From the IMG/VR virus record IMGVR_UViG_3300029286_000283, positions 1-21,150 of that record: a stretch of 21,150 bases of DNA, one strand, 5' to 3'. The notes under the pieces are model-generated. The model saw only the letters and a list, made by a program, of their open reading frames with translations. It was not told the origin of the DNA and did not search any database. Source of the stretch: a virus. Below are positions 3,934-21,150 of the stretch, piece after piece; position 1 is the stretch's first letter; each line of letters begins with the position of its first letter. A program made the translations under genes and the position numbers.

Positions 3934-3940
3934 TTTACCC

Positions 3941-4006
3941 TCTACTCTCTGCGCTCTACTCTCTGCGCTCTGCGCTCTGCGCTCTGCTCTCTGCGCTCTG
4001 CGCTTT
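3941..4006. repeat. Intergenic CTCTGCG-type heptamer array
   Basis: This is a run of 7-bp units (CTCTGCG, with CTCTACT and CTCTGCT variants) filling the gap between the spike gene and the next gene on the minus strand. One plus-strand frame would read as a low-complexity SALCAL peptide, but it is not a gene. The same unit recurs at 5587, 9091, 9595, 13788, 15922 and 21118. Confidence 0.9.
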
Positions 4007-4010
4007 AAAC

Positions 4011-5574: not shown

Positions 5575-5586
5575 TTTCTTTTTTTT

Positions 5587-5617
5587 CGCTCTGCTCTCTG
5601 CGCTTTGCGCTTTGCTC
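5587..5617. repeat. Intergenic CTCTGCG-type heptamer array
   Basis: Short array of CTCTGCG and CTTTGCG units, which completely fills the gap between the DUF6046-like gene and the gpD-like gene. It is the same family as at 3941. Confidence 0.85.
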
Positions 5618-6112: not shown

Positions 6113-6114
6113 AT

Positions 6115-6218
6115 TTCACTTTTCACTCTTCACTCTTCACTCTTCACTTTTCACTTTTCACTCTTCACTCTTCACTCTTCACTCTTCACTCTTCACTTTT
6201 CACTTTTCACTCTTCACT
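6115..6218. repeat. TTCACTC-type heptamer array (about 15 units)
   Basis: This is about 104 bp of tandem 7-bp units, TTCACTC alternating with TTCACTT, filling the whole gap between the tape-measure stop and the next start. Plus-strand readings such as FHSSLFTLH are artefacts of the repeat. The unit has the same length as the CTCTGCG arrays but a different sequence. Confidence 0.95.
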
Positions 6219-6221
6219 GCC

Positions 6222-8429
6222 TTACGCATTCGCCTGTGCCATACTCAGCACCCTGTTTAATTCGTCCAGAACAATATCGCGCAAATCCTCGGCAGTTTCT
6301 TTTATGTTGGCGGTAGTTACCGTAAAGGTTTCTACCATGTTGCCAATAGTAATGTTAAAAACATTGCTTTTGGTTCCACCGGTGGCAATGGCTTCGGTGG
6401 TGGCTTTTGTTTTATCTGTTTTTTTAGGCTTTACTTCGGGTGTTTTAATCCCTGGTATTTCGGGAGCTTTGATGCCTTGAATTTCTGGTGCTTCAATCCC
6501 TGGTATTTCGGGAGCTTTGATGCCTTGAATTTCTGGTGCTTCAATCCCTGATATTTCGGGAGCTTTGATGCCTGGTATTTCGGGAGCTTTAATCCCTGAT
6601 ATTTCGGGAACTTTGATGCTTAATACATTATCATCTATTTTTTCAAAAGCATTAAATCCACCGTACATGGGGGCATTGGGAGCCATCGGCAATACCTTAT
6701 TTTTAACCTCGAGACCCAGGTTTTCCCTAATCTCCCTTATAAAATCAGCGCCCTTACCAGCAAGCGATCCTAAACCAGGAATATTAGATAACAATTCTAA
6801 CAACTGCTGCACCGGGTATAGTATCGCATCCAGCAACACCACCCCAATTCTTTTAATTCCGGCTAATATTCCTCCATCTTTAAAAGCGCTTACAATACTA
6901 TCCCAATGCTTTTTAAACGACATAATTACATTTATGAGCAATCCAAACGGCCCCATCAGCAGAGTCAGTGCCGCTCCCCATTTATCATACTTTACAATAA
7001 TTGCTGTTACAAGCCCAATCAACGCCGCAATAGCGAGTATTGTCAGTCCAATTGGGTTAGCATCCATTGCAATATTAAGCAGCCACTGCGCTCCAGTCCA
7101 CAAGGCTGTTTTTGCAGCAATTACGCCCGCCCAGAATGCAACCAGTTTATCAGTAACAAGTTTTCGTTTCGCCCATGTATCCGAAATCCATGTCCATATT
7201 GCATTCAGTTTTACATTTTTAGCTAACCATCCTATGGTATCTTTCATCAATGTAAAAGCCGGAACCAGATCACTTACCGTGGACATGGTTTGTACCAAAA
7301 TATCAATGTACGGATAGGTTTCGCCTGCCAGGTTAAAAAAACCTATTTTCAGGTTATCAACAAAAGCGGTCATCCGCTTCATTTTTTCGGAGGTAGTTTC
7401 CATCACTATACCGGCCTGCTCCTGTGCCGTATTAGTACCCTGAATAGCTACTGTGTACTGATCCATCAGGGTAGTTCCCGAAATTAAACCAGTGGCGGCA
7501 TTCACGTTTTCCAGCGCAAAAATCTTACTCATCAGGGCGGTATCCTGCAGCACCGGTTTAAGCATATTTAAACGCTGCGACAGCGTTAAACTCTTATCGC
7601 CAAGCTGATTTACATCAATTCCTGCGGCATTCAAACCTTCAATGGCATCTTTCGACATAAACCTGCCTTCCGACATCTTCATCATAACGTTGCGAAGGGC
7701 AACTCCACCCTCAGCGCCTCTTTTGCCTGCTTTGTCAAGTACCTGAATTGCTGCATTGGTTTCGGCAAACGAAACACCAGCCATTTTTGCAGCCATGCCT
7801 GAGTTCTCCAAAGCCATTGCAATATCAGGCAACTCTGCCGAGCCTTCTTTGGCTGCGGCAGCCATAATGTTCATCATGTCGGCCATTGTTTTTGATGCCG
7901 AAGTAGGGTCGTCCAGCGAAACCTGGAACTGGTTCATGGCGGTAGTAAGAACGTTGGCAGCCGCCACGCTGTCGCCACCCATAGTTTTCGATAATGTCGA
8001 AACCGAATCGCCCATTGCTGCTAATGCTGTGGGAACGTTAGCAATGTCAGGACCTAATTTTGAAAGTATTAATTTGTATGCCTCAACACTTTGCGCCGCA
8101 CTGCCTCCGAAAGTTTTGGCAGCTTTGCGTGCATAGCCTTCTATTTCGTTTAATTTTTCACCAGTGGCTCCGGTAATTGCCGAAAGGTCGGCCAGTGATG
8201 TTTCTAACTCAATACCAGGCTTCATAATGTTGGCAAAACCCTGCCCAACGCCTTCTATGGCATGTTTTACAGCATCTAATTTTAAAAACGATGCCCCAAA
8301 TTTATCACACACACTTTGCGTGCGCGAAATAGTTTTTTGTAGTTTTGTCGCTGAATCAGTAACATTATCAATAATTGCGTTTCCGTTACTGTCAAATACA
8401 ATACTATAATTTATGCTTTGGGCGCTCAT
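6222..8429 (-). CDS. Tail tape measure protein
   Basis: This 735-aa protein is the longest gene of the tail arm and sets tail length. Residues about 60-330 match the TP901-type tape-measure core: 'ADLSAITGATGEKLNEIEGY', FGGSAAQSVEAYKLIL, 'SSTLSKTMGG'-like and MAGVSFAETNAAIQVLDKAG-type segments, ending in NLKIGFFNLAGE. The middle (about 430-520) carries hydrophobic helices (WLLNIAMDANPIGLTILAIA and VGIPFGLL-like stretches) that may act in membrane passage of DNA. Residues about 604-666 form eight tandem 8-aa units of the type KAPEIPGI. The C-terminus (VFNITIGNMVETFTV) is beta-like and contacts the tip. It lies just after the chaperone genes, as in most phages. Confidence 0.92.
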   Translation of the reverse strand: MSAQSINYSIVFDSNGNAIIDNVTDSATKLQKTISRTQSVCDKFGASFLKLDAVKHAIEGVGQGFANIMKPGIELETSLADLSAITGATGEKLNEIEGYARKAAKTFGGSAAQSVEAYKLILSKLGPDIANVPTALAAMGDSVSTLSKTMGGDSVAAANVLTTAMNQFQVSLDDPTSASKTMADMMNIMAAAAKEGSAELPDIAMALENSGMAAKMAGVSFAETNAAIQVLDKAGKRGAEGGVALRNVMMKMSEGRFMSKDAIEGLNAAGIDVNQLGDKSLTLSQRLNMLKPVLQDTALMSKIFALENVNAATGLISGTTLMDQYTVAIQGTNTAQEQAGIVMETTSEKMKRMTAFVDNLKIGFFNLAGETYPYIDILVQTMSTVSDLVPAFTLMKDTIGWLAKNVKLNAIWTWISDTWAKRKLVTDKLVAFWAGVIAAKTALWTGAQWLLNIAMDANPIGLTILAIAALIGLVTAIIVKYDKWGAALTLLMGPFGLLINVIMSFKKHWDSIVSAFKDGGILAGIKRIGVVLLDAILYPVQQLLELLSNIPGLGSLAGKGADFIREIRENLGLEVKNKVLPMAPNAPMYGGFNAFEKIDDNVLSIKVPEISGIKAPEIPGIKAPEISGIEAPEIQGIKAPEIPGIEAPEIQGIKAPEIPGIKTPEVKPKKTDKTKATTEAIATGGTKSNVFNITIGNMVETFTVTTANIKETAEDLRDIVLDELNRVLSMAQANA
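6432..6618 (-). repeat. 24-bp tandem repeat in tape measure (8 copies)
   Basis: About eight units of 24 bp encode KAPEIPGI with variants IEAPEIQG, IKAPEISG, IKVPEISG and IKTPEV. The copies are nearly identical in DNA, including alternation of PEIQ and PEIP units, so expansion is probably recent. Pro and Ile at fixed spacing suggest an extended linker. Copy number would change protein length in 8-aa steps. Confidence 0.9.
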
Positions 8430-9090: not shown

Positions 9091-9153
9091 GCAGAGCGCA
9101 TAGTGCATAGCGCATAGCGGTTCGCTCTGCGCTCTGCGCTTTGCGCTTTGCGC
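9091..9153. repeat. Inverted pair of heptamer arrays
   Basis: The left part contains GCGCATAGTGCATAGCGCAT-like units; the right part contains CGCTCTGCGCTTTGCGC units. The two halves are partly complementary (for example GCAGAGCGCA against TGCGCTCTGC), so transcripts could form a hairpin. It fills the gap between the tube gene and the chaperone. Confidence 0.85.
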
Positions 9154-9564: not shown

Positions 9565-9594
9565 GATATTTTTGTTTTTGTTAGTTTAAAAATT

Positions 9595-9655
9595 GCAAAG
9601 TGCAGAGCGCACAGCGCAGAGCGAAACACTATGCGCTTTGCGCTATGCGCTATGC
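9595..9655. repeat. Inverted pair of heptamer arrays
   Basis: GCAGAGCGCACAGCGCAGAG on the left and CTATGCGCTTTGCGCTATGC on the right are partly complementary. It fills the gap between sheath and tube and has the same architecture as the array at 9091. Confidence 0.85.
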
Positions 9656-9657
9656 TT

Positions 9658-12817: not shown

Positions 12818-13765
12818 TTAAACACTCATTTTTGTTTTCTTGGCTACCCTTGCTTTGTAATCGGCAAGCAGCGTTTCGTACTTTGCGGGGTCGTTTGCTT
12901 TAAGTTCGGCAATGGTTCCTGCTTTGTCGTAGGCTTCGTAGGTCTCGTTTTTGTCGCTGCCATCCAGTGGTTTCACTCCCGCACTAAAACTCCTCTTGGC
13001 AGGAATGCTCTCAATAATTTCTTTAGCCTGGTTAAAGTCGGCTTCGGCAAGTTTTACAAACGAGGCCTTTTTGTCAGCCGTAAGGCGTCCTTCTTTTATG
13101 GCGGCATCCACCAGGCCAATGGCTTGGTTTGTAAGGTAGGTTTTCAGTTCGGTTTCGGCCTTGTCCTTTTGCTCCTGCAAAAGGTCTTTGGCTGCTACCA
13201 ACTCCATCACAGCAGCATTAAGCGTGGTAATGTCCACCTCTTTGGCAACATCCAACGCTTTTGCCGCCTCGGCGGTCAGTTTAATTACATCCATGTTTGT
13301 TTCGGTTTGTTTATTAATATTCAAAATTTCGTTTATCGAAAGTTTAATATCTTCGGTTGCCATCAGTTCGCCCTTGCCATTGTACAGGCGCAGGCTGTTG
13401 GCATTGCTTGGCACGCTCACTATGCTGGCTTCCTGTAGTTCCCAATTGGTAACTACCGGAATACCATCGGTTCCCATTTCGGCTTTTAATATTTGTAAGC
13501 CCATCGAAACACCTTTTAAAAATCCTTTTTCTACCTTCTTTTGGATTTTAGAGGCGTTTTCGTCATCATCAAACACAGGGTCGGCCATTAGAAGTGCACC
13601 TTCAATTCTCAGGTTTTCCCACTTGCCTGTTACGTCATCGTGTTTGTGATTGTAAAGCATCACGGGGTTGGCCTTAAAACGGTCAAAACTCCCTCCGTCA
13701 TTCTTCACCCTGAACCCGTACGAGTTCGTTTTGTTTTCGTCATTCAGTACAAAAGCCTTTTCCAT
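12818..13765 (-). CDS. Prohead protease fused to scaffold
   Basis: A 315-aa fusion. Residues 1-130 are an HK97-type (S78) prohead serine protease: SYGFRVKNDGG, a NPVMLYNHKHD block holding the likely catalytic His40, DPVFDDDENASKIQKKVEKG with GFLKGVSMGL, and 'QEASIVSVPSNANS', in which Ser114 is the likely nucleophile. Residues about 158-315 are a helical scaffold (TAEAAKALDVAKEVD, LLQEQKDKAETELKTYL), ending in a small basic tail. Protease and scaffold are commonly fused in phages of this kind. An internal Met at 158 (13294) is preceded by a leader similar to that of the sheath gene, so a scaffold-only product is likely (inference). It leads the leftward arm and is followed by the capsid. Confidence 0.85.
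   Translation of the reverse strand: MEKAFVLNDENKTNSYGFRVKNDGGSFDRFKANPVMLYNHKHDDVTGKWENLRIEGALLMADPVFDDDENASKIQKKVEKGFLKGVSMGLQILKAEMGTDGIPVVTNWELQEASIVSVPSNANSLRLYNGKGELMATEDIKLSINEILNINKQTETNMDVIKLTAEAAKALDVAKEVDITTLNAAVMELVAAKDLLQEQKDKAETELKTYLTNQAIGLVDAAIKEGRLTADKKASFVKLAEADFNQAKEIIESIPAKRSFSAGVKPLDGSDKNETYEAYDKAGTIAELKANDPAKYETLLADYKARVAKKTKMSV
13292..13320 (-). promoter_or_regulatory. Possible internal translation start for scaffold
   Basis: ATTAATAAACAAACCGAAAC lies a few bases before the internal ATG at 13294 (Met158, MDVIKLTAEAAKALD). The sheath start at 10869 is preceded by ATTAATAAACAAACAGAA. Such A-rich leaders replace Shine-Dalgarno sequences in Bacteroidota. Separate scaffold initiation inside protease genes is known in other phages such as lambda and Mu. 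Confidence 0.45.
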
Positions 13766-13787
13766 AGTTTTACTTTTTTTTTCTTTT

Positions 13788-13824
13788 CGCTTTGCGCTCT
13801 GCCCTCTGCGCTCTGCGCTATGCT
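13788..13824. repeat. Heptamer array upstream of protease gene
   Basis: Units CTTTGCG, CTCTGCC, CTCTGCG and CTATGC lie in the leader region of the leftward arm. They belong to the same family as the array at 3941. Confidence 0.85.
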
Positions 13825-13869
13825 ATTTTAAGCGCCGCAAACATAACCCACCCCTTTCCATCTTGCAAA

Positions 13870-13917
13870 AAACCTCCCAACACTTGGGAGGTTTCACCCA
13901 AGTATTGGGAGGTTTCT
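13870..13917. promoter_or_regulatory. Tandem 21-bp repeats with nested palindromes, likely operator or attenuator
   Basis: Two near-identical 21-bp units (13876-13896 and 13897-13917) each have the form CCCAA-NNN-TTGGG followed by AGGTTTC. The repeat period of 21 bp equals two helical turns. An upstream AAACCTCCCAA (13870-13880) also pairs with either TTGGGAGGTTT (13884 or 13905), giving alternative hairpins. It lies between the two divergent late arms (13766-13962, otherwise without a gene), a natural place for shared control. The sites may bind a dimeric regulator or form an attenuator. Confidence 0.55.
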
Positions 13918-13962
13918 TTTATTTCGACCGGTTTAAATCCAACTTTGCGCAAAAAATAATTA

Positions 13963-14421
13963 ATGAAACAGCGAAAAACCGTTCCACGTAACCCCGAAAA
14001 GTTTGAATATGCCTACCTTCTTTTTATGCAGGGTGTGGCGCAGCAGGATATTTGCACCCGTGTGGGCATTGCAGCCCCTACCCTTAAAAACTGGAAAGAA
14101 ACAGGCGGTTGGGAAGAAAAACGGGCTGCCCGTACCATAAGCATTGACGATTTGATGCAAAAAACCCTTCGCAAAATAAGCCAGATGTTAGACGATAACG
14201 ACAACTTTTCGGCTGATGCCTTTGCCAAAGCCGTTAATCAGCTCAAAACCCTCAAAACCGGCAATACCATCGATGACGAAATAAATTGCTTTATGGCATT
14301 CCAGGACTACCTTATTAAACACCGTCCGCTCAACAAAACCATTACCGACGACCTTATTAAAACCATTATCCGTCTGCAGGACGATTACGTTCAAACCCGA
14401 TTAGGCCATGCCGGAAAGTAG
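13963..14421 (+). CDS. Terminase small subunit
   Basis: This 152-aa protein starts the rightward arm and recognises phage DNA for packaging. Residues about 20-60 form a helix-turn-helix: AYLLFMQGVAQQDICTRVGI followed by APTLKNWKETGGWEEKR, the typical small-terminase DNA-binding pattern (Q/ICxxVGIxxxTLxxW). The remaining part is helical and probably oligomerises (DDLMQKTLRKISQMLDD, AKAVNQLKTLKTG). It overlaps the large terminase start by 14 bp, which confirms the pairing. ATG at 13963 follows an A-rich leader. Confidence 0.85.
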   Translation: MKQRKTVPRNPEKFEYAYLLFMQGVAQQDICTRVGIAAPTLKNWKETGGWEEKRAARTISIDDLMQKTLRKISQMLDDNDNFSADAFAKAVNQLKTLKTGNTIDDEINCFMAFQDYLIKHRPLNKTITDDLIKTIIRLQDDYVQTRLGHAGK

Positions 14422-15919: not shown

Positions 15920-15921
15920 CC

Positions 15922-15957
15922 CGCTCTGCGCTCTGCGCTATGCGCTCTGCGCTCTGC
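15922..15957. repeat. Heptamer array between terminase and DUF1320 gene
   Basis: Five units of CTCTGCG/CTATGCG type follow the large terminase stop. In this arm the CTC-rich strand is the coding strand, whereas in the left arm it is the antisense strand, so orientation does not follow transcription. Confidence 0.9.
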
Positions 15958-15978
15958 AATTAACAAAATAGAAAAACC

Positions 15979-21114: not shown

Positions 21115-21117
21115 ACC

Positions 21118-21150
21118 CGCTCTGCGCTTTGCGCTCTGCACTATGCACTA
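21118..21150. repeat. Heptamer array at right edge
   Basis: CTCTGCG/CTTTGCG/CACTATG units follow the virion-morphogenesis gene and run off the window. They belong to the same family as the array at 3941. Confidence 0.85.

Follow-up and report, generated by a model that had tools for sequence, protein, structure and literature searches.

Candidate operators between predicted divergent late promoters of Mu-like Bacteroidota phages and a putative regulator that covaries with them

Introduction

In phage Mu, the middle and late genes are switched on by the activators Mor and C, which are encoded at the end of the preceding operon. The Mor dimer occupies a short dyad just 5' of its promoter, centred at -43.5, as described in PMC4390567. 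In phage T4, the late transcription factors gp55 and gp33 bear a C-terminal peptide that binds the sliding clamp gp45 (PMC2988020). For bacteria, QL[S/D]LF is given as the beta-clamp binding consensus (PMC9690074; PMC3919608), and the promoter consensus of Bacteroidota reads TAnnTTTG at -7 (PMC7366714). Late-gene timing in transposable phages outside the Mu group is little described in the literature that we searched, in which we found no account of the control site described here or, for these phages, of a late regulator with a clamp-type tail; such a search is not proof of absence.

Here we describe tandem dyads lying between two predicted late promoters that point away from each other, together with a candidate regulator, a family of small proteins that we call C-like. 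As with Mor and C, this would be the late switch of a Mu-like phage, with a gene that closes the preceding operon and perhaps also a dyad just 5' of the promoter. Unlike the Mu system, a single node faces two divergent arms, the dyads step by 21 bp, and the -33 box is kept and not replaced. With the -7 box taken to begin at -12 relative to the predicted start, the centre of the dyad, which is 37 bp away from that box, would fall near -49, compared with -43.5 for Mor. The Mor domain itself (PF08765) was found above the cut-off in 0/30 records, with two matches below it, one of which is the small terminase.

Results

Two dyads in the only divergent gap of the window

The window, a virus record of 21,150 bases, belongs to a Mu-like phage and carries Portal_Mu, Mu F-like and S78 protease domains. 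The control region is flanked by protease and tail genes on the left and by terminase and portal genes on the right. The leftward late arm begins with the prohead protease (12818..13765, - strand; Pfam Peptidase_S78, E 3.1e-07) and the rightward arm with the small terminase (13963..14421, + strand), which gave no Pfam match and was assigned from its position and its annotated hankyphage counterpart. The gap between these two genes is the sole divergent one in the window, as the earlier note on this DNA had said.

Two repeats of the form CCCAA-NNN-TTGGG had been reported in this gap, and both are exact: CCCAA-CAC-TTGGG at 13876-13888 and CCCAA-GTA-TTGGG at 13897-13909. AGGTTTC directly follows both of them, and they start 21 bp apart, in agreement with the claimed two helical turns; identity between them is 85% (20 nt). 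The dyads proved longer than first described, at 19 bp each. Dyad 1 (13873..13891, CCTCCCAA-CAC-TTGGGAGG), with arms of at least 8 bases, has its centre at 13882 and dyad 2 (13894..13912, TCACCCAA-GTA-TTGGGAGG) at 13903; the distance to the leftward -7 box from the first centre, and to the rightward one from the second, is 37 bp. The exact pattern of dyad 1 with its longer arms had no match in the viral contig collection, which means only that this arm sequence is rare, and an Rfam search of the window gave no match. When CCCAANNNTTGGG was searched at up to one mismatch, the window contained two occurrences versus 1.05 expected, a number reached in 32/100 shuffles; the chance argument from the window alone is weak, though both copies are exact and 21 bp apart. 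The strong argument for the dyads is a comparative one, drawn from the family geometry and the quantised box spacing.

On the leftward side, the predicted -7 box (13838..13845, - strand; CAAACATA on the + strand, TATGTTTG on the - strand) fits TAnnTTTG, and 20 bp from it lies a -33 box (13866..13869, - strand; CAAA on the + strand, TTTG on the - strand). On the rightward side, the -7 box (13940..13947, + strand; CAACTTTG) lies 102 bp from the leftward one, and the -33 region has a T-tract (13914..13919, + strand) that reads TTCTTT where the consensus of the family is TTTTTT; this element is weaker than its leftward counterpart TTTG. Compared with the Bacteroidota primary-sigma promoter (TAnnTTTG at -7, TTTG near -33), the left promoter fits both elements, and the right one has a single mismatch at -7, in its first base, and the T-tract at -33. 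The whole unit, including both promoters, spans approximately 13838-13947.

Other repeats occur in the window. Seven-base tandem repeats (CGCTCTG, TTCACTC and others) fill many intergenic gaps of both arms (3934-4010, 5575-5617, 6113-6221, 9102-9153, 9565-9657, 13783-13823, 15920-15978 and 21115-21150), and a 48-bp repeat of about 3.9 copies (6435-6619) lies within a tape-measure-like gene (6222-8429, - strand), where a PEIxGI-type peptide is repeated.

The dyads are locked to the promoter boxes across the family

Relatives were collected by a large-terminase search, from which we kept the best 80 of 229 viral loci and the best 80 of 205 loci from bacterial genomes, the latter labelled as Bacteroidota in all but a few cases, with hosts including Bacteroides mediterraneensis, Parabacteroides and Paraprevotella. 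With the window, this gave 161 loci, in 134 of which the protease (-) and the small terminase (+) are divergent. Of the remaining 27, the small terminase neighbours the protease on the - strand in 11 and both genes are on the + strand in 2; another 9 have no match to either query and 5 no small terminase match. In phages with an inverted small terminase, the element occupies the newly formed divergent gap, as in locus L029, whose dyad is at +44 (counted by eye). From the 134 control regions we removed 33 that were redundant or contained N, and one of the resulting 101 had no leftward box; the other 100 were aligned on the leftward -7 box, which was picked blind to palindromy. In five loci a tRNA-Met (CAT) gene on the - strand separates the late control region from the start of the protease (L137:9198-9270, L138:9168-9241, L139:4954-5027, L145:9168-9241 and L154:9291-9364), a position from which it is predicted to be transcribed by the leftward late promoter.

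In this alignment the CAAA of the leftward -7 box is conserved at 96-100% per column. Palindromicity at +44, which places the dyad centre 37 bp from that box, averaged 4.5/7 pairs (background 1.85, z 9.6), with at least 4/7 pairs in 75/100 nonredundant loci and a weak first dyad in the other 25; at +65 the mean was 3.09 (z 4.5). When the regions were compared with themselves, a shift of 21 gave a self-similarity of 8.53/17, versus 3.6 to 5.2 at every other lag between 10 and 44. The rightward box was matched 97 times in the 100 loci, 35 times at 102 bp from the leftward box, 32 times at 81 bp and 7 times at 123 bp, and these spacings of 81, 102 and 123 bp go with one, two and three dyads, respectively. 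Dyads of at least 4/7 pairs at +44, +65 and +86 were present in 28, 2 and 1 of 31 loci of the one-dyad class, in 27, 25 and 2 of 35 loci of the two-dyad class, and in 6, 4 and 4 of 7 loci of the three-dyad class. Read in their own directions, the two promoters share one consensus order in 73 loci, namely the dyad, a TTTG or T-tract at -24 to -21 and the -7 box, with frequencies of 0.81/0.95/0.96/0.70 for the leftward TTTG at -24..-21. In 27/100 loci no rightward box was found at 81, 102 or 123 bp, a few being off by 1-2 bases and others having no matching box; near relatives of the window (L003 and L007) are among these 27, yet each has two dyads, at +44 and +65. Three tandem operators at 21-bp intervals were seen in L134, L141, L143, L152 and L155 (L141 and L152 by eye), and the three dyads of L155 are nearly identical.

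The earlier note had suggested looking for recurrence of the motif. On the phage side, the window holds no further copies, and the related loci hold none above chance (11 extra copies versus 8 in shuffled DNA). In nine contigs scanned with their own operators, these were confined to the divergent gap, bar one match with two mismatches.

A small gene closing the early operon encodes the candidate regulator

Where a contig is long enough to include it, the early operon closes with a gene that points towards the right late arm and codes for a C-like protein of about 65-85 aa. The C-like HMM matched 94 ORFs at E < 1e-3, of which 92 were used (one was masked and one, a second match in the same locus, was dropped); 91/92 are on the - strand, and the median position is 6.2 kb to the right of the large terminase start. 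Of the 46 loci that include the operator region and extend 10.5 kb or more to the right of that start, 40 have a C-like gene by HMM. The six negatives are L120, which is masked; L119 and L128, whose genes in the C-like position end in QLKLF and QMSLF, respectively; L158, with none before the locus end; L122; and L148. In six further cases in which the locus stopped short of this position, the full record contains the gene; one of these is the record of L007, the nearest relative of the window by protease. The window itself contains no C-like gene, as expected, because in L007 the distance from the large terminase start rightward to the gene is about 9.4 kb and the window has only 6.7 kb there; we infer that its phage carries one just past the record end.

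Forty C-like members gave only weak matches in Pfam (best HTH_22, E 0.0012, in 2), and those in PHROGs and NCBIfam were likewise weak and limited to one or two members each. By sequence comparison C-like thus appears to be an undescribed family, with no entry in these three collections that describes it. The AlphaFold model of the L011 protein has four helices (mean pLDDT 86.8) and a loose, low-scoring tail; searches for solved structural relatives gave none convincing (Foldseek best E 3.2, VIA-align best Z 3.5). From the look of the sequence and the model, the protein seems helix-turn-helix-like, without a family match.

Many C-like proteins carry a tail resembling a beta-clamp binding peptide. 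The motif Q[LM]x[LIM][FL] occurs in the last 20 residues of 37/73 nonredundant members, versus 0.2/73 for shuffled C-like tails, and the narrower forms QLxLF and QL[SD]LF occur in 29/73 and 14/73; none of the three was found in 473 other ORFs of ten contigs and the window. A looser Q..LF was present in 34/73 C-like proteins versus 3/473 other ORFs. Among 15,234 other six-frame ORFs of 40-140 aa, 41 have the strict motif, mostly in frames without sign of being genes, and two of these are the L119 and L128 genes in the C-like position. About half of the family is without the strict motif, and L009, L015, L085 and L087 have nothing similar. The tail looks like a hook for the sliding clamp of DNA replication.

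Dyad sequences covary with C-like

Covariation was measured in 47 nonredundant loci, after 13/60 with an anchor and C-like had been dropped for no clear dyad. Operator distance correlated with C-like distance at a raw r of 0.44 and, with large terminase controlled, at a partial r of 0.43 (p ~0.0005; 0.001 in a second run), in Mantel tests that are lenient with related sequences and did not include early repressors. The small terminase gave a partial r of 0.26, which fell to 0.03 (p 0.25) with C-like controlled, and that of the capsid, 0.18 in 45 loci, vanished likewise; the protease, portal, MuF, gpG and a 159-aa protein gave values of -0.07 to 0.09. C-like stayed at 0.36 to 0.47 whichever of seven late proteins was controlled. 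Changes in dyad number in 45 loci required 4 steps on the C-like tree versus 9 on the large terminase tree. The dyad sequences, which vary among phages, covary with C-like better than with the seven late proteins.

Discussion

Taking these observations together, we consider it likely, with some confidence, that the repeats are operators of one DNA-binding protein, probably C-like, that would switch on both late arms together. Each of the predicted back-to-back late promoters has a putative operator centred 37 bp 5' of its -7 box and adjoining its -33 box; a C-like dimer would sit on each dyad and contact RNA polymerase beside the -33 box, turning on both arms, and C-like might use the clamp to tie the late switch to replication. 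This reading draws on the geometry, the 21-bp quantisation, the covariation and the tail motif, from which we infer binding by C-like, activation and a role for the clamp-like tail.

The regulator is probably an activator. The near-consensus -33 and -7 boxes of the leftward promoter may nevertheless not need one, which leaves room for repression: C-like, or a lysogenic repressor, could sit on the dyads and hold off two promoters whose default is on, and early repressors stood outside the covariation comparison. We regard this as unlikely, since the place of C-like at the end of the early operon would suit an activator, and since the confinement of the operators to the gap in the nine contigs means that no second operator was seen at the early end. 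Packaging starts often have tandem repeats next to the small terminase gene, and the dyads could be a pac or cos site to which the neighbouring small terminase binds; the distances of this protein do track those of the operator. This covariation, however, is lost once C-like is controlled, and the dyads are locked to promoter boxes on either side. Hankyphage, a distant relative, is moreover described as packaging by headful from the left end (PMC12135933), and we judge a packaging role to be improbable.

The earlier note also pointed to an extra arm able to form alternative hairpins. The arm is real, 13867-13888 being 91% complementary to 13897-13918, and this follows from two palindromes standing in tandem. 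Predicted folds are strong (-29.2 kcal/mol, z -4.3, on the + strand; -40.2, z -8.6, on the - strand) and a T-run lies 3' of the repeats on the - strand, as a terminator or attenuator would have. Yet the dyads are 5' of both predicted start sites and so would not be transcribed from those promoters, those of many relatives are imperfect and would fold poorly, and a terminator leaves the exact 21-bp steps tied to the promoter boxes unexplained; hairpins as the working part are not supported, and we think such a role very improbable. A site for a host regulator, of the kind that lies beside many promoters, is hardly credible for dyads that differ widely among phages and track a phage protein. On these grounds the hairpin, packaging and host-regulator readings were rejected as the main one. 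The late-gene control site proposed in the note is supported in outline, the RNA-hairpin readings excepted: throughout a large phage family the spacing between the dyads and either predicted promoter is fixed, the dyads covary with the candidate regulator, and they do not recur in the rest of the window or, in related loci, more often than by chance.

With regard to the T4 late factors, the likeness is a motif match, many C-like proteins ending in a QLxLF-type peptide; C-like differs in being a small, seemingly helix-turn-helix-like protein with its own putative operator, not a sigma-like or flap-binding factor, and the clamp would be the host's beta clamp. Hankyphage p00 of Bacteroides shares the divergent layout of the window family, with an annotated small terminase in the same place, and the gene that takes the place of C-like there has QLSLF followed by three final residues; the protein is distant from C-like (hhalign probability 61%), and no clear dyad was found at the expected offset. 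The isolated phage fF4 has the 81-bp box spacing but only 3/7 pairs, which is no clear dyad, and no C-like match among the four small genes tried.

The two-way late switch is likely common to many Mu-like phages of Bacteroidota. As a broader and tentative proposal, to which we give somewhat less than even weight, a family of transposable Bacteroidota phages may run its late genes from one symmetrical node, served by an activator of 65-85 aa whose loose tail would attach to the host beta clamp and thereby make late transcription depend on licensing by replicative transposition, and the node may grow only in whole two-turn operator steps. A precise control site and a candidate regulator are now available in phages of gut, rumen and lake Bacteroidota, and the phages that carry from one to three operators, spaced by exact helical steps and paired with matching regulators, form a ready set for the study of operator specificity. 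If the tail does bind the clamp, these phages would add to T4 a second example, unrelated to it, of late transcription coupled to the clamp.
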